Assembly (NCBI GenBank): GCA_028284265.1
Contig: JANQRZ010000008.1
Coordinates: 1 to 64,000, forward strand
Direction: 5' to 3'
Source: Rhodothermales bacterium
GTDB taxonomy: Bacteria; Bacteroidota; Rhodothermia; Rhodothermales; JANQRZ01
Length of the DNA stretch: 64,000 nucleotides
Position 1 is the stretch's first letter, and every line of letters starts with the position of its first letter. This document shows positions 20,311-63,011 of the stretch, in pieces. Made by a program: the position numbers and the translations under genes. Below the pieces are notes generated by a model. It did not search any database. It was not told where the DNA came from and was given only the letters and a program-made list of their open reading frames with translations.

Positions 20311-20383
20311 GCCAATGTAGCTCAGTTGGTAGAGCAGCTCACTCGTAATGAGCAGGTCACCGGTTCGAGTCCGGTCATTGGCT
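20311..20383 (+). tRNA. tRNA-Thr (anticodon CGT)
   Basis: A 73-base cloverleaf: acceptor GCCAATG pairs with CATTGGC, the anticodon stem GCTCA/TGAGC holds the loop CTCGTAA, giving anticodon CGT for codon ACG. The T arm is ACCGG-TTCGAGT-CCGGT and the discriminator is T. The 3' CCA is not encoded. It directly precedes the sensor kinase gene. Confidence 0.96.
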
Positions 20384-20445
20384 CCCTCGAAGGCCCAGGC
20401 GGCGCTCCGCGCTTCTTGGGCCTTTCTATTTGGCTCCGACCGCGT

Positions 20446-22053
20446 ATGTCCAGCCTATCCGCCCAAGCGCTCATCCGCCAGACGGTCTTGGCCGAACTCG
20501 GCCTGCGCGTCATCAGCGCAGACAGCATCGGCACACTGGCTGGCTATGTGGCCCATGCCGTCGCGGATGCCATTGGAGCGGCGGTAGTCGGCGTGTTCGA
20601 GTGGGAGCGCGAGGCCCTCGTGCTACGCGCCGGCGCCGGATGGCCGGACGAGTTGTATGGGCGTGCCGTGCTAGGCGTTGCGGACCAGCACATCGAGACG
20701 GTGCTCGGTACGAGTGAGCCGGTATCGATCCACGACGAGGTCCCCGAGGCGTTGGCCGCCGTGGGTATTGCCTCCGGCCTTACGGTCCGTCTTGGCGGAG
20801 CGGGCGAACCGGCGGGTGCACTCGGGGCCTACGCCTTCGAGGATCGGGTGCTCGATGACGGTGTGGCGACGTTTATGGGGGCGGTTGCTGCCTTGCTGGC
20901 AGGAGGGATCGAGCGGGTGCATATGGAGCAAGCCTTGCGGGAAAGCGAAGCCCGTGCGCTCGCTGTGCTCCGAACGACCGTAGACGGCGTCATCACGATT
21001 GACGAGAGGGGGCAGATCGAGTCGTTCAACTTGGCGGCGGAGCGCATCTTTGGCTATACCGCTGCCGAGGTTGTGGGGCAGAACGTCCACATCCTCATGC
21101 CCGACCCCTACCACGCCGAACACGATGGGTATATCCAGGCCTATCACGAGACGGGGCGGCGCAAAATCATCGGCATCGGGCGCGAGGTCGTGGGGCGGCG
21201 CAAGGACGGCTCGACCTTTCCGCTCGACCTCGCCGTGAGCGAAGTCCGCCTCGCCAATCGCACCATCTTTACAGGTTTCGTCCGCGACATTTCCGAGCGA
21301 CGGACGCTGGAGCACGAGGTACTCCGTGTCGCCGAAGACGAGCGGCGGCGGATCGGGCACGACCTCCATGACGGGCTGGGGCAGATGCTCACCGGGACGG
21401 CTCTCATTGCGCGCGGTCTGGCCCGAAAGATCGAGCGGAACGAAGTGCCCGAGGTCGAGGAAGCCGAGGAGGTTGTACATCTGATCAAGGAGGCCGACGC
21501 GCATGCCCGCCGCCTTGCACGCGGTCTGGCACCCGTAGAACTGAACCAAGGAGGACTCGCTGCTGCGCTCGAACGCCTCGCTGCGAACGCGGAGCCGCTC
21601 TTCGGCATCCGGTGCACGGTCGAGGTGCTGGGCGAAGGAACGGCTTCCCTGCCTGACGCCGTCCCGATGCATCTCTTCCGCATCGCGCAGGAAGCCCTCT
21701 CCAACGCCGTGCGGCACGGCCAAGCGGAGCGCGTCGCCATCACGCTCGCGCACGGTTCGGACCGGCTGCGGCTCCGGGTACAAGACGATGGACGAGGCTT
21801 CCCCGATGTACTTCGCACGGGCGGTGCTGAAACCCTCGCTACTCACCTGGATGCAGGAGAGGACCTCAGCGCGCCTACGTCCGGGCGACCGGAAGACAAT
21901 CGGGGCATGGGCATCCGCATCATGCACTACCGTGCCCGCGTCATCGGCGGGCGGCTCGAAATTCGTCCGGGCACCGAACGCGGCACGGTCGTAACCTGTA
22001 CGCTACCGCTTTCGCACCGTGCCTCTGACGACCTAGAAACATCACGGCTATGA
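20446..22053 (+). CDS. GAF-PAS sensor histidine kinase with FixL-like heme-PAS signature (HisKA_3 type)
   Basis: The 535-residue protein has an N-terminal GAF-like domain (about 10-155), a PAS domain (about 170-285), a HisKA_3 dimerisation domain with the phosphoacceptor in HDLHDGLGQ (His308), and an HATPase domain with DDGRGF and GMGIRIMHYR. The PAS segment matches the oxygen sensor FixL at the heme pocket: EHDGYI with His226 where FixL has its proximal heme ligand, and IIGIGR with Arg246 where FixL has the O2-contacting Arg. There is no membrane helix. ATG 20446 was preferred over the open 5' part, which overlaps the tRNA. The following LuxR regulator overlaps by four bases. Heme binding is inferred, not shown. 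Confidence 0.88.
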   Translation: MSSLSAQALIRQTVLAELGLRVISADSIGTLAGYVAHAVADAIGAAVVGVFEWEREALVLRAGAGWPDELYGRAVLGVADQHIETVLGTSEPVSIHDEVPEALAAVGIASGLTVRLGGAGEPAGALGAYAFEDRVLDDGVATFMGAVAALLAGGIERVHMEQALRESEARALAVLRTTVDGVITIDERGQIESFNLAAERIFGYTAAEVVGQNVHILMPDPYHAEHDGYIQAYHETGRRKIIGIGREVVGRRKDGSTFPLDLAVSEVRLANRTIFTGFVRDISERRTLEHEVLRVAEDERRRIGHDLHDGLGQMLTGTALIARGLARKIERNEVPEVEEAEEVVHLIKEADAHARRLARGLAPVELNQGGLAAALERLAANAEPLFGIRCTVEVLGEGTASLPDAVPMHLFRIAQEALSNAVRHGQAERVAITLAHGSDRLRLRVQDDGRGFPDVLRTGGAETLATHLDAGEDLSAPTSGRPEDNRGMGIRIMHYRARVIGGRLEIRPGTERGTVVTCTLPLSHRASDDLETSRL

Positions 22054-22703
22054 CCACGCGCATCCTACTCGTCGACGACCACCCGCTGATGCGAAAGGGT
22101 CTCGCCCTTACGCTCGACGCCGAAGCTGACCTTGAGGTGGTGGGTCAGGCGTCCGATGCTGAGGAAGCCCTCGGCGTCTTTGACGACCTCGCGCCCGACC
22201 TCGTACTCGTGGATGTATCACTCCCCGGCATGAACGGGATCGAACTCGTCAAGCATCTCATCGTGCGCGACGAAGAAGTTAAGGTGCTCGTCGTCTCGCG
22301 CCACGACGAGTCGCTCTACGCCGAGCGGGCCGTCCGTGCGGGGGCGAAGGGCTACGTCTCGAAGCTCGAAGCCGACGAGGCGATTGTGAAGGCGGTGCGC
22401 TATGTGCTCCGGGGTGGGATCTATCTCTCGGAGGAACTCAAAGACAAGCTGCTCTTCGGGGCCGCGGTCGGACGGAAGGACGCGATGCAGTCTCCTCTGG
22501 AGGTGCTCTCGGACCGCGAATTGGAGGTCTTCGAGATGACGGGACGCGGACTGCCGACGAAGGAAATCGCCGAGCGGCTGCACCTCTCGGTCAAGACGGT
22601 CGAGAGCTACCGGGCGCGGATCAAGACGAAGCTAGGCCTGGAGAGTGGAACCGAGTTGATGCAGCACGCCGTCCGCTGGGTCGAGGGCGAAGGGGCTGGC
22701 TAA
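22050..22703 (+). CDS. NarL/FixJ (LuxR-type) response regulator
   Basis: A 217-residue regulator: receiver (about 1-120) with VDDHPL, acceptor Asp in LVDVSLPGMNG and Lys in YVSKLE; and a LuxR-type helix-turn-helix (about 145-210) with LSDRELEVFEMTGRGLPTKEIAERL and LSVKTVESYRARI. It overlaps the sensor kinase gene by four bases and is its cognate partner. Being placed upstream of the YceI, stress-protein and cbb3 oxidase genes, it is a candidate activator of those genes when oxygen is low. Confidence 0.93.
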   Translation: MTTRILLVDDHPLMRKGLALTLDAEADLEVVGQASDAEEALGVFDDLAPDLVLVDVSLPGMNGIELVKHLIVRDEEVKVLVVSRHDESLYAERAVRAGAKGYVSKLEADEAIVKAVRYVLRGGIYLSEELKDKLLFGAAVGRKDAMQSPLEVLSDRELEVFEMTGRGLPTKEIAERLHLSVKTVESYRARIKTKLGLESGTELMQHAVRWVEGEGAG

Positions 22704-22869
22704 AACCCGCCGGAAGCGTGTAGAGTAATTCCCTAGTGTTGGCGTAGGGGAGAACCGGCAAACCATTTCCAGCCATGCTGACACCCTCAGCAGGGTTAGG
22801 CCGTCAGTGGTGAGGTGCCGGAACGGGGACTTTAGGGCGGTTCATTTGTCACCCGCCTGCCCCCCGCCC

Positions 22870-23436
22870 ATGATGCACTCCGGCGTAGCCCTCGTTCTTT
22901 GCCTCATCGTCGCTGCCCCCCCTCCATCGTTCGTCTTCGAGCCGAGCAGCCGCCTCTGGGTCGAAGGCACCTCTAGCCTCCATGACTGGAGCTGTGAGGT
23001 CGAGCATTTCGCTGGCACACTTGAGGCCGAAACCACCGACACCGGTCTCGCCAATCTCACGCATACGCGTGTCACGGTCCCTGTTCAGGGCATCGATTGT
23101 GACAACGGCACGATGAACGGAAAGCTGCGCAAGGCGCTGGCTTCCTCCGACCACCCGACCGTGACGTTTGCCCTCACGCGCGGTATTGTTGGCGCAGACG
23201 ACACGGACGGATGGTTTGACATCGACGTCTTGGGGCAGCTCACGGTTGCCGGGGAAACGAAGCCTGTGCAGATCGCTGCACGCGGCAAGGCTCTCGGAGA
23301 CGAGCGGTTCCGGCTGACGGGCCACCTCGCACTCCACATGACCGACTACGGCATCGATCCACCGACGGCACTGCTTGGCACGCTCAAGACCGGCGACGAG
23401 GTGACGGTCCACTTCGACGCCACCATCAGGCGCTGA
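22870..23436 (+). CDS. YceI family periplasmic protein (first copy)
   Basis: The 188-residue protein has a signal peptide (MMHSGVALVLCLIVAAPPP) and the YceI lipocalin-like barrel: SSLHDWSCEVEHFAGTLEAE, then CDNGTMNGKLRKALASSDHPTV, then FDIDVLGQLTVAGETKPV and a C-terminal DEVTVHFD strand. YceI proteins bind isoprenoid-like ligands; the one here is unknown. A 129-base gap to the regulator's end probably contains the promoter of this operon. A second YceI gene follows after four bases. Confidence 0.9.
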   Translation: MMHSGVALVLCLIVAAPPPSFVFEPSSRLWVEGTSSLHDWSCEVEHFAGTLEAETTDTGLANLTHTRVTVPVQGIDCDNGTMNGKLRKALASSDHPTVTFALTRGIVGADDTDGWFDIDVLGQLTVAGETKPVQIAARGKALGDERFRLTGHLALHMTDYGIDPPTALLGTLKTGDEVTVHFDATIRR

Positions 23437-23440: not shown

Positions 23441-24055
23441 ATGCAAAGCATGTGGAGTCTAAGCTTAGGACTTGTTCTTCTCGGTAGTGTGCTAGGCGGC
23501 GTGCCCGCTCACGCTCAGTGGGAGTATGCCCTCCAGCCGGGAAGCGTCTTCTGGATTGATGGCACCACGTCCGTCGGCGGATTTACCTGCATGGCAGATC
23601 AGGCTGCCGGTGTGGGTGTGCTCGACGGCTCCTTACAGGAGACCGGGATCCAAGCTGCTCGGACGAACTTCGATGCTGTCGTAGCTGTGCCGGTCCGGGT
23701 ATTCGATTGCGGCCTCCGGCAAATGAACCGCGACCTCTACGAAGCCCTCCGCGGCGCGGAGCATCCGGCGATACGGTTCACCCTCACGTCGGCCTCGATA
23801 ACCGACACCAGCGCTAACGATGGCTGGGCCACCGTAGATGCGTGGGGTACGCTTTCGCTGGCCGGAGCCGAGCGTCCACTCCGCTTGCAGGCCGAGGGGC
23901 GGACCCTTCCCGATGGTCGCCTGCGCCTTCGTGGAAGCCACGCACTCCGCATGACGGATTTCGGGGTGGCCCCGCCTGCTGGTCCGCTTGGGCTGGTTCG
24001 CGCCCGCGACCACATCACCGTCCGATTCGACCTCATAGCTGCCCCGTCTAACTAG
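23441..24055 (+). CDS. YceI-like periplasmic protein (second copy)
   Basis: A 204-residue protein with a signal peptide (MQSMWSLSLGLVLLGSVLGGVPAHA) and a diverged YceI barrel: GTTSVGGFTCMADQAAG, CGLRQMNRDLYEALRGAEHPAI, TVDAWGTLSLAGAERPLRL and DHITVRFDL. It is a tandem paralog of the preceding gene, four bases away, with clearly different sequence; the central CxxxxMNxxLxxAL motif is kept. Probable partner in the same operon. Confidence 0.85.
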   Translation: MQSMWSLSLGLVLLGSVLGGVPAHAQWEYALQPGSVFWIDGTTSVGGFTCMADQAAGVGVLDGSLQETGIQAARTNFDAVVAVPVRVFDCGLRQMNRDLYEALRGAEHPAIRFTLTSASITDTSANDGWATVDAWGTLSLAGAERPLRLQAEGRTLPDGRLRLRGSHALRMTDFGVAPPAGPLGLVRARDHITVRFDLIAAPSN

Positions 24056-24095: not shown

Positions 24096-25361
24096 ATGAA
24101 AGCATACCGCCTCCTCTTCCTCACTCTCGCACTGCTCCCGCTGGCTGCCTACGCCCAGCAGGGCAACAACTTCCAATACTACCGGCCTCCGGGGCAGGCT
24201 GGCCTCAACGTGTTCGAGGCACCCAAAGAAGCAGGATCGAGGTTCGACGGCCTCCACGTAGATGTGGGGGGTGACTTCGCCATTCAGTTCCAAGGCCTGA
24301 CGCAATCGAATGATTCCACCTCCCTCGTCGAGTTATCGAACAACTTTGCGCTGCCGACGGCAAACCTCAACATTGATGTTCAGTTTGCACCGGGGATGCG
24401 GATGCACTTACGCACGTACCTCTCCTCGCGCCACCACCCCGAGGCATGGGTGAAGGGAGGCTACTTCCAAGTTGACAACCTCGACTTCGTCCAAGAGGGC
24501 TTCCTGTCGAACGTCATGGAGTCCGCACGCTTCCGCTTCGGTATGGACGAGATCAACTACGGGGACACCCACTTCCGCCGCTCCGACAACGCACGGGCGA
24601 TGTACAACCCTTTCGTGGGGAACTACATCATGGATTCCTTCTCCACTGAACCGTTCGCCGAGGTGAGTGTCCTGAACTCGGGCTTTATCGGGGTCCTCGG
24701 GATCTCGAACGGGCGGCTCAACCAGAGTCCGCTGGAGGGGGACGACGGCATCGCGGTGTTCGGCAAGCTAGGCTACGACCGCCAGATCAACGATATGGTG
24801 CGGACCCGCCTGACAGGGTCCGTCTATCACAGCACAGATGCCGGTACGCGCGACTACCTCTACGGCGGCGACCGAGCCGGGTCGCGGTACTACAATCTCC
24901 TCGAAGTGATCGACGAAGAGCGGCCTAGCGACTTCCTGCCTCGCTTTAACCCAAGTTTCCCGTATCAGACAGCCTTCCAAGTCAACCCGTTCGTGCAGTA
25001 TCAGGTGGCCGAGAGCGTAGGTGTCGAGCTTTTCGGTGTGGTCGAGCGGAGCATCGGCGGGCCAGACGGTGCCGGGGCCTACACACAACTCGGCGGCGAA
25101 CTGCTTCTCCGGTTCGGCCCGGACCGGGACTTCTACCTAGGCGGTCGGTATAACACCGTCAACGGAGCGGCCGTTGAGGACGGGCCAGAGCAGGAGATCA
25201 GCCGCCTCAACGTGGGCGGCGGTTGGTTCCTCACAAACAATGTGATGGCGAAGGCCGAGTACGTGACCTCATCCTACGACGGGGCTGGGTTCGCCACCAG
25301 TGTCAAGTATGCCGGGGCCGAGTTCAGCGGTTTCGTTCTGGAGGCCGTCATCAGCTTTTAG
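24096..25361 (+). CDS. outer-membrane beta-barrel (porin-like) protein
   Basis: The 421-residue protein has a signal peptide (MKAYRLLFLTLALLPLAAYA) and alternating hydrophobic/polar strands with aromatic girdle residues through the whole length, ending in a C-terminal aromatic Phe (FVLEAVISF), as in outer-membrane porins. It contains no FAD, heme or TonB motif. It follows the two YceI genes by 40 bases, which suggests a shared transcript. I do not recognise a named family, so solute specificity is unknown. Confidence 0.75.
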   Translation: MKAYRLLFLTLALLPLAAYAQQGNNFQYYRPPGQAGLNVFEAPKEAGSRFDGLHVDVGGDFAIQFQGLTQSNDSTSLVELSNNFALPTANLNIDVQFAPGMRMHLRTYLSSRHHPEAWVKGGYFQVDNLDFVQEGFLSNVMESARFRFGMDEINYGDTHFRRSDNARAMYNPFVGNYIMDSFSTEPFAEVSVLNSGFIGVLGISNGRLNQSPLEGDDGIAVFGKLGYDRQINDMVRTRLTGSVYHSTDAGTRDYLYGGDRAGSRYYNLLEVIDEERPSDFLPRFNPSFPYQTAFQVNPFVQYQVAESVGVELFGVVERSIGGPDGAGAYTQLGGELLLRFGPDRDFYLGGRYNTVNGAAVEDGPEQEISRLNVGGGWFLTNNVMAKAEYVTSSYDGAGFATSVKYAGAEFSGFVLEAVISF

Positions 25362-25556: not shown

Positions 25557-26462
25557 ATGCAGCATCTCCTCGTTGCCCGTGACTTCTCTCCGTGTTCTGA
25601 GCGTGCCCTTGCGGTAGGCCTTGATCTCGCCGCTCGTACCGACGCTACGCTTCACCTCGTCCACGCCGAGGTGCTACACGGCGACCCCTACGGGAAGCCC
25701 GCCAACCCGGCTGGAACACTCGATAAGCTCCGCGAACGGTTGAAGGAGGGCGTAGAGCGCGACCGCGATCCCACTGCTCGGTACAACCCCGAAAGCGTGG
25801 CGGTCGAGCACGCGGTTGTCCGCGATGTGGCGGCGGCTCCGGCACTCCTACGCTACGCGGAGGAGCATGACGTTGACCTCGTCGTTCTTGGGACGCACGG
25901 ACGGCGGGGGCTGCGCCGGGCCGTACTCGGGAGCGTGGCCGAAGAGGTGGCCCGCCTCGCCCCGTGCTCCGTCCTCGCTGTGCGTGCAGGTGATGAGGCG
26001 TTCGCGCCGGACACCGTGCTCGTCGCGGTGGACTTCTCCGACGGGAGCCGGGCGGCGCTCCACCATGCCGCGCGTTTTGCCGAGGTCTACGGCGCACGCC
26101 TTGCGATACTTCACGTCATCGAAGAGATTTCGGTCCCGGAGTTTTACGACCTCGGGCTGGTCAGCGTCTATACCTATGGACCCGAGTTCGACGAGCGTGC
26201 CCTCCGTCACCTTCGTGTGTTCGCGGAAGAGGCGCTTGGCGAAGATGTCGCACGCAGCGCGAGCTACTATGTCAAAGTCGGCTCGCCAGCAGGGACGGTA
26301 GTGGATATGACGGAGAAGGTGGAGGCCGACCTCGTAGTGGTTGGGACGCGGGGGCTGTCCGGTGTTCGTCGCCTGCTGCTTGGGAGTGTGGCCGAGCGCG
26401 TGCTGCGTCTGGCCCCAGTCCCCGTTTTCGTCGCTCGGTCAGGTAGTATGGAAGAGCGGTAG
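25557..26462 (+). CDS. universal stress protein, two Usp domains
   Basis: The 301-residue protein contains two Usp domains. Both carry the ATP-binding pattern G-2x-G-9x-G-S: GTHGRRG with ALGS-type turn (VVLGTHGRRGLRRAVLGSVA) in the first and GTRGLSGVRRLLLGSVAERV in the second. Cytosolic; associated with growth arrest and low oxygen. Upstream 195 bases (25362-25556) hold no gene. Confidence 0.93.
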   Translation: MQHLLVARDFSPCSERALAVGLDLAARTDATLHLVHAEVLHGDPYGKPANPAGTLDKLRERLKEGVERDRDPTARYNPESVAVEHAVVRDVAAAPALLRYAEEHDVDLVVLGTHGRRGLRRAVLGSVAEEVARLAPCSVLAVRAGDEAFAPDTVLVAVDFSDGSRAALHHAARFAEVYGARLAILHVIEEISVPEFYDLGLVSVYTYGPEFDERALRHLRVFAEEALGEDVARSASYYVKVGSPAGTVVDMTEKVEADLVVVGTRGLSGVRRLLLGSVAERVLRLAPVPVFVARSGSMEER

Positions 26463-26562: not shown

Positions 26563-27036
26563 ATGCGCCCCCGCTTCGAGGTCGTCGCTCCGCATCCGCC
26601 GGAGGAGGTGGCGCGGCGGTTACGGGAAGCGCTTGCTCTGCCCGAGACGCTGTGGCGAGGCGATGTGTACGGCGCGCACTCTGTGTTCTATGTCCCACTC
26701 AGCGAGGAGCACGTCTGGTCTCCGTTCCTGTCGCTTGACTTGCAGTGGCAGGGGGAGGGCACCCTGGTCCGGGGGCGCTTCGGCCCCAAGCCCTCGATCT
26801 GGACGCTGTTCGTCGCGGCGTATGCCGTGTGCGGGTGCCTCGCCTTTTTTGCGCTTGCCTTCGGCTGGTCGCAATGGTGGATTGGTCAACCGGCGTGGGC
26901 GCTGGCGATGTTGCCCGTTACCCTAGTGGGGGCACTCGTCGTGTATGGCTTGGCGCGCTACGGGCAGCGGCGGGGGCAGGAGCAGATGGAGGCGCTCCGC
27001 CGCTTCCTAGAGGAGACGGTCGACGTTCGGGTGTAG
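26563..27036 (+). CDS. small membrane protein, unknown function
   Basis: This 157-residue protein has a hydrophilic N-terminus (about residues 1-85, with EVVAPHPPEEVARRL) and two hydrophobic helices near 88-110 and 113-135, then a charged tail. No motif is recognised. The upstream part of the open frame overlaps the stress-protein gene and is not coding in this frame, so ATG 26563 is used. It sits between the Usp gene and ccoN. Confidence 0.65.
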   Translation: MRPRFEVVAPHPPEEVARRLREALALPETLWRGDVYGAHSVFYVPLSEEHVWSPFLSLDLQWQGEGTLVRGRFGPKPSIWTLFVAAYAVCGCLAFFALAFGWSQWWIGQPAWALAMLPVTLVGALVVYGLARYGQRRGQEQMEALRRFLEETVDVRV

Positions 27037-27153
27037 GGGCGATCCCCACACTGTGCAGCAGGTGTGCCCGACGGGGAGGTTGGGCCGGGTCTGTCGTCGC
27101 CATCGCAAGCAGGGTTGGACCTTGGGAGACGTTCCTCACCCGCTCTTCTCCTG

Positions 27154-28656
27154 ATGGCTGAACTCACGACCACTGCCCAAGCCGGCGCGCTCGCCCGTCC
27201 CACGCTTGAGGTCTTCCGCTACGACGACCGCATCGTCCGCCACTTCACGCTTGCGACGATCCTATGGGGCTTCGTCGGGATGCTCGTCGGCGTCATCATC
27301 GCGCTCCAGCTTCCGTTCCCCGAAGCCAACCTCGGGCCGTACCTCTCGTTCGGTCGGCTTCGTCCCCTCCACACGAACGCTGTCATCTTCGCCTTCGCGG
27401 GCAACGCCATCTTCGCGGCGATCTACTACTCGACGCAGCGGCTCTGCAAGGCGCGGATGTTCTCCGACTGGATGAGCCGGTTCCACTTCTGGGGCTGGCA
27501 GGGCATCATCGTGGCCGCCGCCATCACGCTCCCGCTCGGGCTGACGACCTCGAAGGAATATGCCGAACTAGAGTGGCCCATCGACATCGCGATCACGGTC
27601 GTGTGGGTTGTCTTCGCGGTGAACTTCTTCGGGACGCTCTACAAGCGGCGCGAGCAACACATGTACGTCGCGCTCTGGTTCTACATCGCCACGATTGTCA
27701 CGGTGGCGGTGCTGCACCTCGGCAACTCGATGGCGGTCCCGGCGAGCTGGTTCAACAGCTACCCGATCTACCGGGGCGTGCAGGACGCGCTCGTGCAGTG
27801 GTGGTACGGCCACAACGCCGTCGCCTTCTTCCTCACGACGCCGTTCCTCGGCCTGATGTACTACTTCCTCCCGAAGGCCGCCGAGCGTCCGGTGTTCTCC
27901 TACCGCCTGTCGATCATCCACTTCTGGAGCTTGGTCTTCATCTACATCTGGGCCGGGCCGCACCACCTCAACTATACCGCGGTGCCCGAGTGGGCCGCGA
28001 CGCTCGGGATGGTCTTCAGCGTGATGCTCTGGATGCCGAGCTGGGGCGGCATGATCAACGGCCTGTTCACGCTGCGCGGCGCGTGGCACAAGCTGCGCGA
28101 CTCGGTTGTGCTCAAGATGTTCGTCGTCGGGATCACGTTCTACGGGATGTCGACGTTCGAAGGCCCGATGCTGTCGGTCAAGACGGTCAACGCGCTCTCT
28201 CACTACACCGATTGGAACATCGCCCACGTTCACTCGGGCGCGCTCGGGTGGAACGGGTTCATGACGTTCGGGATGATCTACTGGCTCGTGCCGCGCCTCT
28301 GGAAACGCGAGCTGTGGTCGCAGAAGATGGCGAACGCCCACTTCTGGATCGGGACCATCGGGATTCTGCTCTATGTCCTCGCGATGTACACCTCGGGTAT
28401 CACGCAGGGCCTGATGTGGCGCGCCTTCGACGACACAGGCCGCCTGCTCTATCCGGACTTCATGGAGACGGTCATCCAGATCAAGCCGATGTACTGGGTC
28501 CGGCTGATCGGTGGGACGATGTACCTCGGTGGGGTGGTGCTGCTGATGGTCAACGTATGGCAGACGATCCGCCGTGCGCCGAAGGATCTTCCCGACCCGG
28601 CAGTCGCTGTTCCCGCCGCTTCATCCACGTCCGCCAAAGACATCCCTGTCGCCTAA
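27154..28656 (+). CDS. ccoN: cbb3-type cytochrome c oxidase subunit I
   Basis: The 500-residue protein is the catalytic membrane subunit of the high-affinity terminal oxidase. The metal-ligand histidines fit: GHNAVAFFLTTPFLG with His in the Cu-B region, AGPHHLNYTAVPEW (His-His pair), and the late NIAHVHSGALGWNGFM pair for hemes b and b3. About 12 membrane helices. Low-spin heme ligand region is near LRPLHTNAVIFAF. It reduces O2 in the inner membrane. ATG 27154 gives MAELTTTAQAG, just ahead of the conserved start. First of four overlapping or adjacent oxidase genes. Confidence 0.95.
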   Translation: MAELTTTAQAGALARPTLEVFRYDDRIVRHFTLATILWGFVGMLVGVIIALQLPFPEANLGPYLSFGRLRPLHTNAVIFAFAGNAIFAAIYYSTQRLCKARMFSDWMSRFHFWGWQGIIVAAAITLPLGLTTSKEYAELEWPIDIAITVVWVVFAVNFFGTLYKRREQHMYVALWFYIATIVTVAVLHLGNSMAVPASWFNSYPIYRGVQDALVQWWYGHNAVAFFLTTPFLGLMYYFLPKAAERPVFSYRLSIIHFWSLVFIYIWAGPHHLNYTAVPEWAATLGMVFSVMLWMPSWGGMINGLFTLRGAWHKLRDSVVLKMFVVGITFYGMSTFEGPMLSVKTVNALSHYTDWNIAHVHSGALGWNGFMTFGMIYWLVPRLWKRELWSQKMANAHFWIGTIGILLYVLAMYTSGITQGLMWRAFDDTGRLLYPDFMETVIQIKPMYWVRLIGGTMYLGGVVLLMVNVWQTIRRAPKDLPDPAVAVPAASSTSAKDIPVA

Positions 28657-28674
28657 CCCTGCCCCGCGATTCCC

Positions 28675-29388
28675 ATGTTCAACCGACTCATCAAAGCGAA
28701 CGGGCGGCACCGCAGGCTCGAAGGCTGGCCGTTCATCTTCACCGCCCTCACCGCGCTCGCCATCCTCACCGGGACCATCATCGAGTTTGCCCCGCTCTTT
28801 CTCGTGGACGACAGCATGACGGCACCCGAAGGTGCAACGCCGTGGACTCCGCTCGAAGTCGCCGGACGCGATCTCTACATCCGCGAAGGGTGTAACAACT
28901 GCCACAGCCAGATGGTGCGGCCCTTCCGCCACGAGCTAGAGCGCTACGGCAACTTCTCGACCGCCGCCGAGACGGCATTCGAGAGTCCGCACCTGTGGGG
29001 ATCGAAGCGGACCGGCCCAGACCTCGCCCGGCTCGGCGGGAAGTACCCCCACCTCTGGCATGTCCGCCACATGGAGGACCCGCGCTCGACCTCGCCCGGC
29101 TCGATCATGCCGGACTACCCGTGGATGCTGACGGCGCGGATGGACTACGAGTACCTGCCCTCGGTGATGAGTGCGCTCCGCACGGTCGGTCTGCCGTACT
29201 CCGACGCCGAGGTGGAAAACGCCCCAGCGCTCGCCCGCGCGCAGGCCGAGCAGATCGCCGCCGAGATCGTTGAGCAGGGCGGGCCGGAGGGCCTCGCCAA
29301 CAAGGAAATCACGGCGCTCGTCGCCTTCCTCCAGCGGCTTGGTGTCCAGCACAGCGAGCCACTCACCGCAGCCCCCGACCAGCCATGA
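28675..29388 (+). CDS. ccoO: cbb3-type cytochrome c oxidase subunit II
   Basis: A 237-residue protein with one N-terminal membrane helix (about 18-45) and a periplasmic c-type cytochrome domain. The heme site is CNNCHS (EGCNNCHSQMVRPF), and a distal Met is available in GSIMPDYPWML, typical of CcoO. It passes electrons from CcoP or cytochrome c to CcoN. It is 18 bases after ccoN and overlaps the next gene by four. Confidence 0.95.
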   Translation: MFNRLIKANGRHRRLEGWPFIFTALTALAILTGTIIEFAPLFLVDDSMTAPEGATPWTPLEVAGRDLYIREGCNNCHSQMVRPFRHELERYGNFSTAAETAFESPHLWGSKRTGPDLARLGGKYPHLWHVRHMEDPRSTSPGSIMPDYPWMLTARMDYEYLPSVMSALRTVGLPYSDAEVENAPALARAQAEQIAAEIVEQGGPEGLANKEITALVAFLQRLGVQHSEPLTAAPDQP

Positions 29389-29585
29389 TGAAAGACGCCG
29401 TCCGCGCCCTCGAAACGGGAGCCTTCGCCGAGATCGGCGTCCTCGCCTTTTTCGTGGCCTTCCTGCTCATCGTCGTCTACGCCCTTACGCTCTCGAAGCG
29501 CAGCCGCGACGCGGCCAAGCAGATCCCGCTCGACGACCTCCCCGACGCTTTCCCTTCCCACACGACCAACGGCAACCCCGCATGA
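29385..29585 (+). CDS. ccoQ: small cbb3 oxidase subunit CcoQ-like
   Basis: This 66-residue protein has one membrane helix (about residues 15-36) and a short charged C-terminus, the size and place of CcoQ between ccoO and ccoP. It overlaps ccoO by four bases and ccoP by four. CcoQ stabilises the oxidase complex but is poorly conserved in sequence, so the call rests mainly on position. Confidence 0.75.
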   Translation: MMKDAVRALETGAFAEIGVLAFFVAFLLIVVYALTLSKRSRDAAKQIPLDDLPDAFPSHTTNGNPA

Positions 29586-30229
29586 GCGACGCCGCACCCA
29601 TCCCCGATCCCGAGTCCCCGCTCCGCGACGCTACGGACTCCACACCGCTCGTCGGCGATGCGAGCGATCTTATCATCCGCGGCCATAAGTACGATGGTAT
29701 CCGCGAGTACGACAACCCGATGCCGGGCTGGTGGACGATGTTGTTCCTCGCTTGTGTCGCGTTCGCGCCGCTCTACGTCGTTGGCGTCCACGTCTTCGAC
29801 TGGATCGATGACTACGGCGAGGACCTCGCCGAAGCGCAGGCCGACCTCGCCCAGATTCGAGAGGTCTATGCTTCGACCGGACCATCGTTCAAGACCGACC
29901 CCGGCGCGCTCGCTGAGTACGCCGCCGATGCCGCGTTCGTGGAGGCTGGAGTGGAGCCCTACCAAGCCGTCTGCGCGGCGTGCCACGGCGACGCTGGGCA
30001 AGGTCTCATCGGCCCCAACCTGACGGACGATTACTGGATTCACGGCGCGACGCCGACGGACGTGTACCGCGCCATCAACGAGGGCTTCCCGGCGCAGGGG
30101 ATGCCTGCTTGGGGCAACCAACTCACACCCGAAGAGCAGGCGCAGGCGATGGCCTTCGTGCTCTCACTGCGCGGCACTGACCCGCCCAACCAGAAGGAGC
30201 CACAGGGCGAACGCGTCACTGGCTCCTGA
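29582..30229 (+). CDS. ccoP: cbb3-type cytochrome c oxidase subunit III (one-heme form)
   Basis: The 215-residue protein has an N-terminal CcoP region (YDGIREYDNPMPGWW), one membrane helix (about residues 45-70), and a single c-type cytochrome domain with CAACHG and a Met ligand in GMPAWG. The classical CcoP has two heme-binding sites; only one CxxCH is seen here. It is shorter than the usual ~300 residues. Start ATG 29582 was chosen because it overlaps ccoQ and the upstream frame is not coding. Confidence 0.9.
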   Translation: MSDAAPIPDPESPLRDATDSTPLVGDASDLIIRGHKYDGIREYDNPMPGWWTMLFLACVAFAPLYVVGVHVFDWIDDYGEDLAEAQADLAQIREVYASTGPSFKTDPGALAEYAADAAFVEAGVEPYQAVCAACHGDAGQGLIGPNLTDDYWIHGATPTDVYRAINEGFPAQGMPAWGNQLTPEEQAQAMAFVLSLRGTDPPNQKEPQGERVTGS

Positions 30230-30249
30230 CCGCTCCCGCCTGACCGCGT

Positions 30250-31698
30250 ATGGCCTCGAACTTCGTCCCGGCCTCCGACCTCGACATCCTCGAATCGCCA
30301 GAGGAGATCCTCTCGACGCTCACTCGCGACGGCAAGCGGCGCTGGCTCTACCCGACGCCGGAGAAGGGGCGGTTCTGGCACCAACGACGCATCCTGGGCT
30401 GGGCACTCATTGCGCTCTTTGTTGCCCTGCCCATCGTTCGTATCAACGGGAAACCCGCCGTCTTCCTCGATGTGGTGCAGCGCGAGTTTACATTCTTTGG
30501 CTTCACCTTCTACCCGACCGACACCTTCCTGCTGCTCCTCTTCGGGATCGCCGCGCTGACGAGTATCGCGCTCCTGACGGCGCTGCTCGGGCGCGTGTGG
30601 TGCGGATGGGGTTGCCCGCAGACGGTCTACCTAGAGTTCGTCTTTCGACCCATCGAGCGACTGATCGAAGGAAAGGAACACGTCCGCAAGCGTCGGAACG
30701 AAGGGCCGTGGAGTTTCGATAAGGCCTGGCGGAAAGCCCTCAAGTGGGGCGTCTACGCCGTGTTTTCCATTGCCGTCGCGCACGTCTTTGTGAGCTACAT
30801 CGTCGGGTGGGAATCGCTTCTCGATTGGATGACGGGGTCGCCGTTCGAGCACTGGGGGTTCTTCGTGCTGATGGCCGGGACCAGCGCGCTCGCGCTTTTC
30901 GACTTCGGGTTCTTCCGCGAGCAGATGTGTACCATCGTCTGCCCCTACGCCCGCTTCCAGAGCGTGCTGCTGGATGAGGATTCGATGATCGTCTCCTACG
31001 ACCCGAACCGGGGGGAGCCTCGGTCGAAGCGGTCGAAGAAGACCATTGAGCAGGAGGAGGCAGGGCTGATGCCTTCGAAGGGCGACTGCATCGACTGCTT
31101 CGCTTGCGTCCGCACCTGCCCGACGGGCATCGACATCCGCGACGGGTTGCAGATGGAGTGCATCGCCTGCACGCAGTGCATCGATGCGTGCGACACCATC
31201 ATGGACCGGATCGGCAAGCCGCGTGGGCTGATCCGCTACACGAGTGAGCACGCGCTCGAAGACCAACCGACCCGCATCGCCCGTCCGCGCACAGTGCTCT
31301 ACAGTGTGCTGCTCCTCGCCGTGACCGTGATGTTCACCGTTGCCCTGACGACTCGCGGGGCTTACGATGTCGAAGTCGGGCGCGTGACCGGTATGCCCTT
31401 TACGGAATTGCCGGATGGCCAGATCGCCAACCGGGTTCGCTTCCGGGTTCAGAACCAGACGACACAGCCAACGGCCTTCTCTGTCGAGGTCATCGCGCCG
31501 GAGGGGGCGAGCCTGCGCGTCGGTGGTCGTCAGCCCATCCAGGTCGCACCGCGTGACCTAGGGCGCGTCGAAGCGTTCGTCGTCGTGCCGCGCACTGCGT
31601 TCAGCAATGCAGCGCAGCAGGAGGCACAGTTTCGCGTCGTCTTCGAGGATGGCCACGAGGAGACCCTGACTTTTCCCTTGCTCGGACCTAGCCGCTAG
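30250..31698 (+). CDS. ccoG: cytochrome c oxidase accessory protein CcoG (RdxA/FixG)
   Basis: The 482-residue membrane protein has several helices, the RVWCGWGCPQTVYLE motif, a CIVCPYARFQS stretch, and ferredoxin-like 4Fe-4S clusters in CIDCFACVRTCPTG and CIACTQCIDACD. A C-terminal immunoglobulin-like domain follows (about 380-480). CcoG helps assemble the cbb3 oxidase, probably handling copper. It lies 20 bases after ccoP in the same direction and so belongs to the oxidase operon. Confidence 0.95.
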   Translation: MASNFVPASDLDILESPEEILSTLTRDGKRRWLYPTPEKGRFWHQRRILGWALIALFVALPIVRINGKPAVFLDVVQREFTFFGFTFYPTDTFLLLLFGIAALTSIALLTALLGRVWCGWGCPQTVYLEFVFRPIERLIEGKEHVRKRRNEGPWSFDKAWRKALKWGVYAVFSIAVAHVFVSYIVGWESLLDWMTGSPFEHWGFFVLMAGTSALALFDFGFFREQMCTIVCPYARFQSVLLDEDSMIVSYDPNRGEPRSKRSKKTIEQEEAGLMPSKGDCIDCFACVRTCPTGIDIRDGLQMECIACTQCIDACDTIMDRIGKPRGLIRYTSEHALEDQPTRIARPRTVLYSVLLLAVTVMFTVALTTRGAYDVEVGRVTGMPFTELPDGQIANRVRFRVQNQTTQPTAFSVEVIAPEGASLRVGGRQPIQVAPRDLGRVEAFVVVPRTAFSNAAQQEAQFRVVFEDGHEETLTFPLLGPSR

Positions 31699-31706
31699 CC
31701 GCTCCC

Positions 31707-32615
31707 ATGACATCTTCTCCTGACTTTGCCCACCTCGTCTGCGCGCTCGACTTCTCGGAAGGCTCCGAAGCTGCGCTCATCCGCGCCGCTGACCTCGCCG
31801 AGCGGTTCCACGCCCGCCTCCACCTCTTCCACACAGAGGCGACCTTTCGAGCGAGCAGGGGAGGTGAGCACCAAGCCGACCAGGCGAAGGACCAATCGCT
31901 GGTTCGGCTCTACGAGTTCGCGGAGGAGGTACTCGGCGGGACCGATGTCCTCGATGTCCTCGGCCCCGAGTTCGTGGTCCGCCACGGGGAGTACGCTGCC
32001 GATGCGGTCGTCCGCTATGCCACCGAAGTAGAAGCAGGCCTCGTCGTGCTTGGTACTCACGGGCGAAGGGGCTACCAGCGCCTCGCACTAGGGAGTGTGG
32101 CCGAGTCGGTTGTCCGCCACGCGCCGTGCCCGGTCCTGACGGTACCGAACGAGGCCGCACGCACCGCGCCGAGTCCTTCGCGGCCCGTGCTCGTCGCCGT
32201 CGATTTCTCGGCGCACAGCCGAGCGGCGCTCCAACTCGGCGAGCAGTTCGCGGCGCTCTTCGACGCACCCATAGAGGCGATCCATGTTGCTGAGGACCTC
32301 GGCCTCGTGCCGGAGTTCTACACCGATGCTGGGATGGTCGTCGCGCACAACATCCCGGAGCTGGCTGACAAAGCCGAGGCTCATCTGCAGCAACTGGTAG
32401 ACGAAGAAGGCGGCACGGCTCGGCCGCATGTTCGGTTTGGGCGTCCTCACCATGAGATCGTCGCGCGCGCCGAGGAGGTTCGTGCCGGGCTTGTCGTCAT
32501 GGCGACGCATGGGCTGACAGGCGTGAAGCACGCGCTCCTCGGGAGTGTCACCGAGCGCGCACTTCGGCGGTCTCACTGTCCGGTGTTATCGGTTCGCGCC
32601 AGAGGAGGTCGCTAG
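31707..32615 (+). CDS. universal stress protein, two Usp domains
   Basis: The 302-residue protein has two Usp domains; the first ends with VVLGTHGRRGYQRLALGSVAESV and the second with VMATHGLTGVKHALLGSVTERA. It is similar in arrangement to the Usp at 25557-26462 and begins eight bases after the ccoG stop. Cytosolic. Placement directly in the oxidase operon suggests expression together with the low-oxygen genes. Confidence 0.93.
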   Translation: MTSSPDFAHLVCALDFSEGSEAALIRAADLAERFHARLHLFHTEATFRASRGGEHQADQAKDQSLVRLYEFAEEVLGGTDVLDVLGPEFVVRHGEYAADAVVRYATEVEAGLVVLGTHGRRGYQRLALGSVAESVVRHAPCPVLTVPNEAARTAPSPSRPVLVAVDFSAHSRAALQLGEQFAALFDAPIEAIHVAEDLGLVPEFYTDAGMVVAHNIPELADKAEAHLQQLVDEEGGTARPHVRFGRPHHEIVARAEEVRAGLVVMATHGLTGVKHALLGSVTERALRRSHCPVLSVRARGGR

Positions 32616-32616
32616 C

Positions 32617-34182: not shown

Positions 34183-34208
34183 CCTCCTCAGCCACTGACG
34201 GTTCTGCT

Positions 34209-35162
34209 ATGCTTGCCCCGAATCGCATCCTCGTCCCGCTCGACTTTTCCGGTGCCTCTGACGCCGCGCTCCGTCGCGCTGCCGATCTGGCTGCCCGCAC
34301 CGGTGCTGCCCTACATGTGCTGCACGTTGTGGCGGGCTTCGAGATGACCGGTGCCGAGATGCCCGATGCGGACCGGGCCTTCTACCAGCGCGTTTGGGAC
34401 CGGGCCGAGGCCAAGCTCAACAACTACCTTCAGCGCGCTGGCCTGTCTGGGACCGGGTTAGAGTACGTGCTCGCACACGGCGCTCCGTCGCAGGCAATCC
34501 TCGCCTACGCGGAGGCGCACGACATCGGGTTGATCGTGATGGGGACGCACGGGCGTACAGGGCTACAGCGCTTTTTCCTCGGCAGCGTTGCCCATGAGGT
34601 GCTACGCCGCGCCGAGATGCCCGTGATGGTGGTGCCAATGGCGGATGCTCCGCTGAAACCGCTCCGCCGCGTCGTGGCACCAACCGATTTTTCCGATGCG
34701 TCGCGTATGGTACTTCCCGTCGCCGCCAGCCTCGCCGCGCTGTACGGTGCCGACCTCGACCTGCTTCATGTCCTCGAACCGGTCCGCTACCTTGAGGCCA
34801 TCGCGGGAACCACGATTACCGCCGACCTTACGCCGGGTCTCCGGGAACGGGCTGAACGCAAGGTGCAAGAGTTCGTGGCTGATCCAGACCTCGCGCGGAT
34901 GCTGGCTGGGAGAGACCAAGCCGAGGACCTGAAGCCTGTGGAAGGGGGAGCCGGTCTAGCGCGCATCAGGTCGCACGTCGCTGAAGGGCGCGCAGCCGAA
35001 ACCATCGCCGAAGCCGCTCGGGAGTGGCACGCCGACGCCATCGTGATGGCGAAGCGAGGCTTGCATGGCGTGGAGCGTTTCCTGCTGGGGAGCGTGACCT
35101 CGCGGGTGTGCCACCTCGCTCCGTGTGCGGTCCTGGTCGTTCCCTTCGGTTTTTCTGCGTAG
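34209..35162 (+). CDS. universal stress protein, two Usp domains
   Basis: The 317-residue protein carries two Usp domains with nucleotide-binding patterns VMGTHGRTGLQRFFLGSVAHEV and VMAKRGLHGVERFLLGSVTSRV. The second copy has lost the first Gly of the pattern (AKRG in place of GxxG), so it may not bind ATP. It ends the run of Usp/ATP-grasp genes before a hairpin. Confidence 0.92.
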   Translation: MLAPNRILVPLDFSGASDAALRRAADLAARTGAALHVLHVVAGFEMTGAEMPDADRAFYQRVWDRAEAKLNNYLQRAGLSGTGLEYVLAHGAPSQAILAYAEAHDIGLIVMGTHGRTGLQRFFLGSVAHEVLRRAEMPVMVVPMADAPLKPLRRVVAPTDFSDASRMVLPVAASLAALYGADLDLLHVLEPVRYLEAIAGTTITADLTPGLRERAERKVQEFVADPDLARMLAGRDQAEDLKPVEGGAGLARIRSHVAEGRAAETIAEAAREWHADAIVMAKRGLHGVERFLLGSVTSRVCHLAPCAVLVVPFGFSA

Positions 35163-35194
35163 CCGCAGACGGGGGCTGGGGGAATATCTGATCG

Positions 35195-35213
35195 TGTAGG
35201 GGGCACCCCTACA
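35195..35213 (+). terminator. perfect 8-bp hairpin between Usp and the ccoI unit
   Basis: TGTAGGGG and CCCCTACA flank the three-base loop GCA, about 33 bases past the Usp stop. No T-tract follows, so it may be a weak terminator or a protein-binding palindrome. The remaining 35214-35313 stretch shows no gene and may contain the promoter for the small membrane protein and ccoI. Confidence 0.45.
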
Positions 35214-35313
35214 ATACTGACCGCCGTAGCCCGACCTAGTACGTGCCCTACGCACCGTCATAGCGGCTTGGTAAGCTTCAGCATCTTGCCGTCATCACTA
35301 ATCACCTCCTCGT

Positions 35314-35526
35314 GTGGATACTCTCTCTAGCAACGGGCATTCGGGAGGACGTGTTGGGCCGGGGCAGGCCGAGCAGCGTCCCTCGCTGGTACCTCCTCAC
35401 ATCGCGTGGCCACTCTTTATCGTGCTTCTGCTCGCGATGAGCGTCGGAGCCGCACTGTTCACAGCCTACATGGCCGTATCGGACGGTGGGGTCGAACTCG
35501 TAGAAGACGCGCCGTTTACGCACTGA
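35314..35526 (+). CDS. small single-helix membrane protein ahead of ccoI (FixH/CcoH position)
   Basis: The 70-residue protein starts with GTG and has one membrane helix (about residues 30-52: WPLFIVLLLAMSVGAALFTAY). It ends one base inside the start of ccoI (TGATG). In many genomes ccoH/fixH precedes ccoI, but this protein is much shorter than the usual 150 residues and the sequence shows no clear match. I call it only by position. Confidence 0.6.
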   Translation: MDTLSSNGHSGGRVGPGQAEQRPSLVPPHIAWPLFIVLLLAMSVGAALFTAYMAVSDGGVELVEDAPFTH

Positions 35527-38045
35527 TGCCCGCCATCGTCCCCGATATCGCCCCGGTTCTGGTGACCGCCGAATCGCCGTGCGCTCATTGCAGCCTGCCG
35601 GTTGGCTCGCAGCCGGTGCGTCGGGGCGAGGCTGCGTTCTGCTGCACGGGCTGCGCGGTCGTCTACGAGGCCCTCGGCGCTGCCGGGTTTGGCGAGACCT
35701 ACTATCGCCTCCGCGAACTCCCAACGGAGCGTGAGGCCACGCGGCCCGTCGCGCCGGACGCCCTGCAGGTCCGTGAGCTTGACACGCCTGAGTTTCTCGA
35801 TACCCACACCCGGCGCACTGCCGATGACCAGCGCGTGGGCGAACTATTCGTAGACGGCGTGCATTGTGCGGCGTGTGTGTGGCTCGTTGAGCAGCTACCC
35901 TACCACGTTGAGGGCGTGATCCAAGCCCGCCTCGATCTGCCTCGGGCGCGGCTTCGGCTCACCTTTGACGATGGGGTTCGGCTGTCCGCTGTCGCCGACT
36001 GGCTGGCGCGGTTCGGGTATGCGCTCCGACCTGCCCGCACCGAAGCGCTCGGGCAGCGCACCGACGCCGAGCGGCGGCTCCTCGTCCGGCTCGGCGTGGC
36101 GTGGGCGCTCGCCGGGAACGTGATGCTCCTCGCCTTCGCGCTCTACGCGGGCCTCGACCGCACCGGCGGCGACGGCCTAGCGACGGCAGCGCGCTGGATC
36201 AGCCTCGCCCTTGCCGTCCCCGCTGTCACCTACGGCGCGGCTCCGTTCTTTCGGCGGGCCTCGGCATCGCTTCGGGCAGCGTGGGGCGTCCGCGACCTCC
36301 GTCGCCTCCACATGGACACGCCCATCGCCCTCGGTATTGCCATCGGGTTCGGTCACAGCGCATGGGCGACGATCACCGGACAGGGCGAGGTGTGGTTCGA
36401 CTCGATCACGGTGCTCATCGCGGCGCTGCTGACGGCGCGGTGGCTTCAGCTTCGCAGCCGCCGCCTCGCAGGCGAGGCCTCAGAACGTCTCCTCGCGCTC
36501 GTGCCGACGATAACCCGCCGCGTCTGCTCCGATGGGACGGTCGAGGCCGTTCGTGTCGATAGGCTCAGGCGGGGTGATCTGGTGATGGTACCCGCAGGCG
36601 AGGTGGTGCCGGTGGACGGGACCGTGACTGGCGGGGCAAGCCGACTCAACAACGCGGTGCTGACGGGCGAGAGTCGCCCCGAGCCGGTTCGCCTCGGCGA
36701 TCGCGTTGAGGCTGGGGCGACAAACCTGAGTGCCCCACTGCGTCTCCGCGTTGAGCGCGTCGGCGAGGCGACCCGCGTGGGACAGCTTCTCGCGTGGGTC
36801 CGCGATGCCGAGGCGCGCTGCGCGCCTGCCGTGCTCTTGGCTGATCGGATCGGCGGAGTCTTCGTTCTTGCCGTTGTTGCCCTCGCCCTTGGCACCGCTC
36901 TACTGTGGAGCGTCCTCGACCCGGCGGCGATGCCGCACCACGTTGTCGCGCTGCTTGTCATCACCTGTCCGTGCGCGCTCGGGATGGCAACGCCGCTGGT
37001 GTTCACCGTGGCGGCAGGCCGTGCGGCTCGCGCCGGGCTGTTTGTCAAGAGCGACGAGGCCGTGCAGCGGCTCACCGAGGTCGATGCGGTAGTTCTCGAC
37101 AAGACGGGCACGCTCACTGAGGGACGGATGGTGCTGACGGCATTGGAGGGAGACCTCGGCCTGAGTCCAGAGCAACGTGAAGAAGCGCTCGGCATCGCCG
37201 CCGCGCTCGAAACCGAGAGCACGCATCCCATCGCCGAAGCCCTCGTCCGGGAACAGGGGAACGGTCGATATGGAGCTCCCACCGCGTTCGAGTCTGTCGA
37301 CGGGTGCGGCGTCCGGGGCGTCGTCGGTGGCCGCGAGGTTTGGGTGGGTCGCCCCGACTGGATTGCTGCCGAGGTGGGGCCACCTTCGCCGCCGCTTGCC
37401 GCCGCGTGGAGCAGCTACACCCGCCAAGGCCACACGCCTGTTGGCGTGGCCGTAGACGGTTGCTGGGCACTCGCCCTCGCTGTCGGGGACGCCCTCCGCG
37501 ACGATGCGCACGCGCTCGTTCAACAGTTGCAGGACGAGGGCAAGGGCGTCCACATTCTCTCTGGCGATCACCCCGTTACGGTCGCCACTGTCGCGGCCCA
37601 GCTAGGCATTGACCTGAAGCACGCTGTCGGCGGGGCCTCGCCCGAGGCGAAGCGCGAGGCGGTTACCGCTTTGCAGCAGGAAGGTCGCACCGTGCTGATG
37701 GTCGGCGACGGGGTCAATGACATCGCTGCGCTCCAATCGGCTGATGTGGGTGTGGCAGTGGGCGGTGGGAGCACCGCTGGCCTCGTCGCTGCCGACGTGT
37801 TTCTGACGCACCCCGGCCTTGCGCCCATCGCAGCGCTTCTCGACGGAGCGCACAGTGCGATGCGGACGGTGCGCGGCCTGCTCGCCTTCGCGCTCGCCTA
37901 TAACCTCGTCGGAGCCGGGGCTGCGGTCGCCGGTCTCGTGACGCCGCTCGTCGCGGCGGTGGCAATGCCGCTCTCATCGCTCACCGTGGTTGCGCTGGCG
38001 CTGCTCCAGCCCTCGTTCCGCCGCTCGCGTGGAGGATCGTCATGA
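35526..38045 (+). CDS. ccoI: heavy-metal P-type ATPase, copper type for cbb3 assembly (CcoI/FixI)
   Basis: The 839-residue protein has a Cys-rich N-terminus (CAHCSLPVG, CCTGCAVVYEALG), a heavy-metal-associated domain with GVHCAACVW, about eight membrane helices, a transmembrane CPC motif (ITCPCALGMATPL), the phosphorylation site DKTGTLTEG, an HP motif (ESTHPIAEAL) and MVGDGVNDIAAL. It pumps Cu+ outward across the inner membrane to supply the oxidase's Cu-B centre. It overlaps ccoS by four bases. Confidence 0.94.
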   Translation: MPAIVPDIAPVLVTAESPCAHCSLPVGSQPVRRGEAAFCCTGCAVVYEALGAAGFGETYYRLRELPTEREATRPVAPDALQVRELDTPEFLDTHTRRTADDQRVGELFVDGVHCAACVWLVEQLPYHVEGVIQARLDLPRARLRLTFDDGVRLSAVADWLARFGYALRPARTEALGQRTDAERRLLVRLGVAWALAGNVMLLAFALYAGLDRTGGDGLATAARWISLALAVPAVTYGAAPFFRRASASLRAAWGVRDLRRLHMDTPIALGIAIGFGHSAWATITGQGEVWFDSITVLIAALLTARWLQLRSRRLAGEASERLLALVPTITRRVCSDGTVEAVRVDRLRRGDLVMVPAGEVVPVDGTVTGGASRLNNAVLTGESRPEPVRLGDRVEAGATNLSAPLRLRVERVGEATRVGQLLAWVRDAEARCAPAVLLADRIGGVFVLAVVALALGTALLWSVLDPAAMPHHVVALLVITCPCALGMATPLVFTVAAGRAARAGLFVKSDEAVQRLTEVDAVVLDKTGTLTEGRMVLTALEGDLGLSPEQREEALGIAAALETESTHPIAEALVREQGNGRYGAPTAFESVDGCGVRGVVGGREVWVGRPDWIAAEVGPPSPPLAAAWSSYTRQGHTPVGVAVDGCWALALAVGDALRDDAHALVQQLQDEGKGVHILSGDHPVTVATVAAQLGIDLKHAVGGASPEAKREAVTALQQEGRTVLMVGDGVNDIAALQSADVGVAVGGGSTAGLVAADVFLTHPGLAPIAALLDGAHSAMRTVRGLLAFALAYNLVGAGAAVAGLVTPLVAAVAMPLSSLTVVALALLQPSFRRSRGGSS

Positions 38046-38233
38046 CCGTGCTCTACGTCCTCATCCCACTCGCCCTCGTCCTTGCTGGTGGAGCCGTACT
38101 CGCGTTTCGTTGGGCCGTCCGCGACGGGCAGTTCGACGATACCGAGACGCCCGCCCTTCGCATTCTCCTCGACGACGATTCGCTGGCAAACCCAAACGCT
38201 TCCTCTGAACCTCTCGACGCCCCGTCCCTATGA
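38042..38233 (+). CDS. ccoS: cbb3-type oxidase assembly protein CcoS
   Basis: A 63-residue protein with one N-terminal membrane helix and the CcoS signature FRWAVRDGQFDD (the family's W-x4-GQFDD) followed by the Pro/Leu-rich ALRILLDDDS. CcoS is needed for heme and copper insertion into the oxidase. It overlaps ccoI upstream and the next gene downstream by four bases each. Confidence 0.95.
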   Translation: MTVLYVLIPLALVLAGGAVLAFRWAVRDGQFDDTETPALRILLDDDSLANPNASSEPLDAPSL

Positions 38234-39480: not shown

Positions 39481-39630
39481 GGTACTGGGCTACAAGCGAA
39501 GGCTTACAACATCGTCTGTATGCGAAGCGCACGCTGTACGCTTCCTGCGTGTCTTGGTGTGGGGGAACGCCTGACACGGCGGATGGCGTCCGTGTGGAAG
39601 GGTCTGACGACACGAGTGTTGATCGCAGGC

Positions 39631-39758: not shown

Positions 39759-39781
39759 ACATGACATAACAAGTAGAGTTA

Positions 39782-40351: not shown

Positions 40352-40353
40352 CC

Positions 40354-40899: not shown

Positions 40900-40944
40900 G
40901 GTCGGCTTAATCTGTCACCACGCTTCACGTCAACCCTCGACATC

Positions 40945-62175: not shown

Positions 62176-62297
62176 GGCTAGGGAGGTGGGTGAGACTCCT
62201 TCTAACCAACAGCTAACCTCATAAACGGCGTGTAATGATAAAACGTGTACATGCTGTACGCTTGAGCCTAGTCTAGGTGTAAGGATCTCCCGTACAC

Positions 62298-62948: not shown

Positions 62949-63011
62949 GGGAGCGCAGGGTTGGGTGGCCGGATTGCATCTATCCAGACACGGGCACCCT
63001 GCCATCGTTGC

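Follow-up and report, generated by a model that had tools for sequence, protein, structure and literature searches.

Does the histidine kinase encoded upstream of a cbb3 oxidase locus in this Rhodothermales bacterium sense oxygen, and does it control the oxidase genes together with the response regulator (RR) encoded beside it? The window analysed here is a 64,000-nucleotide stretch of one contig. Taking the explanation as a whole, we consider it likely that the pair forms a cytoplasmic two-component system for sensing oxygen, in which a FixL-type sensor sits on a DesK/NarX-type kinase, and that its DosR-like RR controls the oxidase genes directly, without FixK or Fnr. This reading is built on domain order, pocket residues, PAS fold, RR type, a palindromic box, the positions of that box and co-occurrence, all read from sequence or computed. 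The pair and the relevant parts of the kinase are as follows.

20446..22053, plus strand: sensor histidine kinase, 535 aa, in the order GAF, FixL-type PAS (predicted heme domain), HisKA_3, HATPase_c
20977..21300, plus strand: FixL-type PAS core (residues 178-285)
21121..21123, plus strand: codon of His226, by alignment the predicted proximal heme ligand (FixL His200)
21181..21183, plus strand: codon of Arg246, by alignment the predicted distal ligand-switch residue (FixL Arg220)
21340..21543, plus strand: HisKA_3 domain (residues 299-366), phosphoacceptor expected at His308 in DLHDGLGQ
22050..22703, plus strand: RR, receiver domain (Asp55) and LuxR-type HTH (GerE)

The mechanically called TTG start of the kinase reading frame, at 20326, overlaps a tRNA-Thr gene (20311-20385), and the ATG at 20446, already chosen in an earlier sequence-only reading of this DNA, is therefore the correct start. 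Pfam models for PAS, HisKA_3 and HATPase_c match the kinase above cut-off. The GAF domain that the same reading placed ahead of the PAS is weak by sequence (GAF_3, 20.5 bits vs. a cut-off of 27), but the predicted structure (pLDDT 86) shows it clearly, residues 2-165 adopting a GAF fold (best match 3ci6, Z 19.9, 2.7 Å over 159 residues). This N-terminal domain is exchanged among orthologues, GAF being kept in only part of them (only some match GAF models), while in others receiver-like or membrane segments are seen, by eye, at the N-terminus. In every one of 29 family members the kinase part has a HisKA_3 match, and the model of this part superposes on VraS and DesK; the proposed fusion of a FixL-type PAS to HisKA_3, where classical FixL has HisKA, is thus real. 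With a HisKA_3 and HATPase kinase adjoining a receiver-GerE regulator, the pair falls among the HisKA_3/NarL-family two-component systems.

The PAS core shares 46% identity with Bradyrhizobium FixL, and its best sequence matches in the PDB are FixL (1d06, E 6.8e-36). Superposed on 1dp6, the heme domain of FixL, the modelled domain gives a Z of 20.5 and 1.2 Å over 116 residues, likewise at 46% identity. Pocket residues that agree with those of FixL are His226 (His200), Tyr229 (Tyr203), Ile241 (Ile215), Arg246 (Arg220) and Leu262 (Leu236), while Ile238 of FixL is replaced by Val264 and Arg206 by Ala232. The Arg206 position varies across the order, being Ala, Asn, Ser or Arg, and because it is Ala232 in this kinase, switching could differ from that of FixL. 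In Sinorhizobium meliloti, the R200A variant of FixL retained heme and CO binding (PMC10765370). Equivalents of His226 and Arg246 occur in every orthologue compared across the order, His226, Tyr229 and Arg246 are invariant among 29 aligned sequences, and both ligand residues are missing from the alignable paralogues and remoter kinases. The sequence-only reading had named His226 and Arg246 as FixL heme-pocket residues and proposed an alignment to FixL as the check; in that alignment both fall inside pocket positions, opposite His200 and Arg220, and their invariance in the compared orthologues and absence from the paralogues bear the claim out. Natural variants exist in the same class, the heme-ligand His being Phe in one kinase (L197, approximately 9527-10579) and Tyr in another (L200, approximately 9472-10530). 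Both of these His-less kinases retain an RR, L197 also retains a strong copy of the box described below, and, judging from their sequences, the variants may have lost heme sensing.

The LuxR-type partner held up as well, with Pfam receiver and GerE/LuxR domains. Across the order its Asp55 is invariant, its recognition helix is largely invariant and mean column identity is 73%. On the NCBIfam FixJ model the RR scores 88.5 bits (cut-off 255), with GacA (150.6) and NarL (124.4) ranking above, and DevR is its second-best solved relative. By sequence, then, the RR is closer to GacA, NarL and DevR than to FixJ and is of the NarL/DosR type. The match of the NCBIfam FixL model is confined to the PAS part of the kinase (154.6 bits vs. 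a cut-off of 850); given this, the HisKA_3 kinase part and the affinities of the RR, the sensor is FixL-like but not FixL by family definition.

Downstream of the pair, the window holds the following genes.

22807..23436, plus strand: YceI family protein 1 (probable ATG 22870), a neighbour kept in other families
23441..24055, plus strand: YceI family protein 2 (Pfam)
24096..25361, plus strand: porin-like outer-membrane barrel, no Pfam or NCBIfam match
25557..26462, plus strand: universal stress protein (Usp), two Usp domains
27154..28656, plus strand: ccoN (TIGR00780, over cut-off)
28675..29388, plus strand: ccoO
29385..29585, plus strand: ccoQ-like, 66 aa (reading of the sequence)
29579..30229, plus strand: ccoP (FixP_N, Cytochrome_CBB3), start approximate
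30250..31698, plus strand: ccoG
31707..32615, plus strand: universal stress protein
34209..35162, plus strand: universal stress protein
35406..38045, plus strand: ccoI, copper P-type ATPase (probable ATG approximately 35526)
38042..38233, plus strand: ccoS-like, 63 aa (reading of the sequence)

All of the cco genes that had been reported downstream (ccoNOQP, ccoG, ccoI and ccoS) were found, at 27154-38233; ccoH was not identified in this otherwise complete locus from ccoN to ccoS. The "five-domain stress proteins" of the same account are in fact three two-domain Usp proteins (25557, 31707 and 34209). The porin-like protein is modelled, with moderate confidence (pLDDT 68), as a beta barrel similar to OmpT/OprO porins; its gene has those of the kinase, RR and YceI proteins as neighbours in several families of the class, in some with a box in front. 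Between two of the Usp genes lies a gene for an ATP-grasp protein with a PGM1_C domain (32545-34182); a homologue is encoded close to ccoN and the kinase in a different family (L070).

A de novo EM search of the 300 bp upstream of ccoN, with no prior model, yielded tGTAGGGg..tcCCCTACa (log-likelihood 326 vs. 63 in shuffles), that is, the palindrome TGTAGGG-N5-CCCTACA. With weight matrices trained for each test on other families only, the box exceeded 12 bits in 36 of 37 ccoN upstream regions and in 0 of 740 shuffles, mostly 105 to 195 bp ahead of the ccoN start. Other motifs were set aside: GCATG-N11-CATGC and CATC-N4-GATG, from the first dyad counts, are coding artefacts of the conserved RR start and kinase end, and TCGGCAGCGCTGCCGA and TGGACGGT-AT-ACCGTCCA, from EM on Usp upstream regions, were taken to be coding motifs from tandem Usp genes. 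The copies in the window are given below, with genome ranks in the 3.7-Mb window genome based on mismatch counts rather than on the weight matrix.

22719..22737, plus strand: weak box copy with 3 mismatches (10 bits) ahead of the YceI-YceI-porin genes, possibly chance
27032..27050, plus strand: box TGTAGGGGCGATCCCCACA, 122 bp before the ccoN start, the sole 1-mismatch copy in the genome
35195..35213, plus strand: perfect box TGTAGGGGGCACCCCTACA ahead of ccoI, the sole 0-mismatch copy in the genome
39558..39576, plus strand: imperfect box of uncertain regulatory role (16 bits), with a YeeE/YedE-type sulfur transport gene (39782) 206 bp further on
62278..62296, minus strand: 2-mismatch box (19.8 bits) upstream of tonB (61501-62175, minus strand)

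Four 2-mismatch copies exist in the genome, one of them the copy 103 bp before tonB, which is one of two adjacent tonB genes (61501-63005, minus strand), and three outside the window. No box lies directly before the kinase gene in the window. A motif shared by the YceI, Usp, ccoN and ccoI genes had been suggested earlier; it is present before ccoN and ccoI and weakly before YceI, and was not seen before the Usp genes of the window. The cbb3 genes had also been called the usual FixLJ/Fnr targets, a point that needs correcting: FixJ acts chiefly by activating fixK (PMC4999443), and FNR/FixK-type boxes were found in 0 of 38 ccoN upstream regions. Because such boxes are missing there and the box that is present is of the GGG/CCC kind, direct control of ccoN by the RR is the more likely arrangement.

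Among 114 genomes of the order, the kinase occurs in 74 and ccoN in 41, and 39 of the 41 ccoN genomes have the kinase (Fisher 7.5e-8, the test and the counts taking no account of shared ancestry). The two genes lie within 12 kb of each other in 15 of these 39 genomes, from seven families, and are divergent neighbours in some. The kinase was not detected in two ccoN genomes, G043 and G059, both incomplete; one family with many genomes (f15) shows neither gene, and the only other genome of the same genus searched (G001) lacks an orthologous kinase, ccoN and an exact box. Kinase and RR are also found where this ccoN is missing, in 35 genomes of the order, and cbb3 therefore cannot be the sole target. 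Two further families of the class retain the cluster of kinase, RR, porin and YceI genes, with boxes in some. Co-occurrence, linkage in seven families and the palindrome before ccoN and ccoI together give comparative support to the link from sensor to oxidase that the sequence-only reading had suggested.

Orthologous kinase loci (656 kb) hold 38 box sites above 17 bits, vs. 0.8 in shuffles and 0 in 131 kb of control loci; they precede the kinase gene (in at least eight loci), the RR, ccoN, Usp, YceI and porin-like genes. Elsewhere in the order box sites precede ccoG and ccoI, and in relatives also nitroreductase, tonB (in two other families too), hemN and ScdA_N genes. From the sequences, the box-bearing genes (HemN, nitroreductase, ScdA_N, Usp and cco) fit a hypoxia response, and a GC-rich palindrome in front of Usp and nitroreductase genes makes this, by prediction only, a regulon of the DosR/OsdR type. 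In a sample of the phylum, a perfect box was present in 11 of the 52 genomes that have the kinase vs. 1 of the 342 that lack it (Fisher 8e-10, again uncorrected for shared ancestry); G043 and G105 have an exact box and no detected kinase. It could be argued that the box belongs to another, co-inherited regulator, Crp-type or other, and that the two-component system controls something else, as binding of the RR to the box is a prediction and the system occurs in genomes without this ccoN. We think this improbable, however, given that the box precedes the kinase gene itself in many loci, follows the kinase's distribution in the phylum, and resembles, with its GGG...CCC palindrome, the boxes of NarL-family regulators (OsdR, AGGGCCGATCGGCCCT; PMC5069765), while the genome's one above-cut-off HTH_Crp_2 match sits elsewhere and, by eye, is without the classical FNR cysteine pattern. 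Within the window, a weak Crp-HTH match (45065) falls on a protein whose sequence is of the GntR type.

In the window a sulfur cluster (39558-43673) also follows ccoS at a distance of 1.5 kb. It comprises two transport genes of the YeeE/YedE type, a rhodanese-domain metallo-hydrolase and, by eye, TauE-like and thioredoxin-like proteins, and the imperfect box lies ahead of it. The PAS could conceivably bind heme and yet respond to NO, CO, sulfide or heme redox state rather than to O2. This cluster and its box would suit such a signal, as would the ScdA/Ric repair gene among the box-bearing genes, and the NreBC pair of Bacillus licheniformis responds to sulfide, as do DosS and DosP to H2S (PMC9918477); but the pocket is FixL-like in detail and the best box targets are cbb3 oxidase genes, the classical low-oxygen response, and we regard a signal other than O2 as unlikely. 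A PAS that keeps the FixL sequence without heme, in a kinase driven by its GAF domain or by redox state, is very improbable, for although some members of the class lost the His and keep the RR, and N-terminal domains vary among orthologues, the ligand residues stay invariant in the compared orthologues while the N-terminal domain is swapped and the FixL-Arg206 position drifts.

For the preferred explanation, an oxygen-sensing kinase with an RR acting directly on the oxidase genes, we infer heme binding, O2 as the ligand, a kinase turned off by O2, binding of the RR to the box, and activation rather than repression. Heme held by His226 in the PAS would bind O2, and Arg246 would swing onto the bound O2 like Arg220 of FixL. 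With O2 bound the HisKA_3 kinase would be off, and upon its loss the RR would be phosphorylated at Asp55. The phosphorylated RR dimer would then bind TGTAGGG-N5-CCCTACA boxes some 120 bp or more ahead of its targets, switching on ccoNOQP and ccoI, and in relatives also ccoG, Usp, YceI, porin, nitroreductase, hemN and tonB genes and the gene of the kinase itself. The task of FixLJ and FixK would thus be done in one step, in the fashion of DosS/DosT-DosR. For the class as a whole, the balance tips slightly toward a FixL-type sensor on a NarX/DesK-type kinase being the master low-oxygen regulator, replacing both FNR and the FixLJ-FixK cascade, with one RR acting directly on a DosR-like regulon that includes cbb3.

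Parts of this arrangement are familiar from other bacteria. FixL-FixJ of rhizobia, Caulobacter and Burkholderia shares the heme-PAS ligand residues (46-52% identity), a LuxR-type RR and the association with cbb3, but its kinase part is HisKA rather than HisKA_3, whereas here no FixK/FNR box precedes ccoN and control of the oxidase is predicted to be direct. The NreB kinase of Staphylococcus is of the HisKA_3 type. NreB-NreC also resembles the present pair in combining a PAS-containing, O2-sensing kinase with a NarL-type RR acting on a GC-rich palindrome (PMC8139620), but NreB carries a 4Fe-4S cluster and the targets are nitrate and nitrite reductases. DosS/DosT-DosR of Mycobacterium tuberculosis and OsdK-OsdR of Streptomyces pair a heme sensor with a NarL-family RR, and their regulons have Usp and nitroreductase genes behind a GGG...CCC palindrome (PMC5069765, PMC11203133); genes of these two kinds typify the DevR and OsdR regulons. 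In those sensors, however, heme is held in a GAF domain, in contrast to the FixL-type PAS predicted to hold it here; moreover, the present box is spaced otherwise and cbb3 genes are its most consistent target. In Myxococcus xanthus, NmpRSTU ties heme-based sensing to cbb3, Usp and HemN genes (PMC11841059), but through a globin-coupled kinase, an NtrC-type regulator and a multi-component relay.

Candidates elsewhere were also considered. A scan of the contigs of the window genome gave four HisKA_3 kinases, none shown with a FixL pocket; the FixL pocket is present in plasmid-borne Azospirillum proteins, whose kinase parts, as aligned, resemble HisKA; and a PAS kinase on the Pandoraea vervacti plasmid pPV15 (L182) looks like HisKA_3, but is without the FixL Arg. 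The latter kinase, on a conjugative plasmid, has a LuxR-type RR and lies among universal stress genes. In the literature searched, mainly freely accessible papers, neither a FixL PAS joined to HisKA_3 nor an oxygen-sensing two-component system for this bacterial group was found described. The FixL sensor module occurs on two different kinase types, and our findings suggest that FixLJ-like and DosR-like systems share parts through recombination. The box yields a predicted regulon that is open to checking by expression, and the system offers a testable oxygen-control circuit for a bacterial group for which, in our literature search, none has been described.
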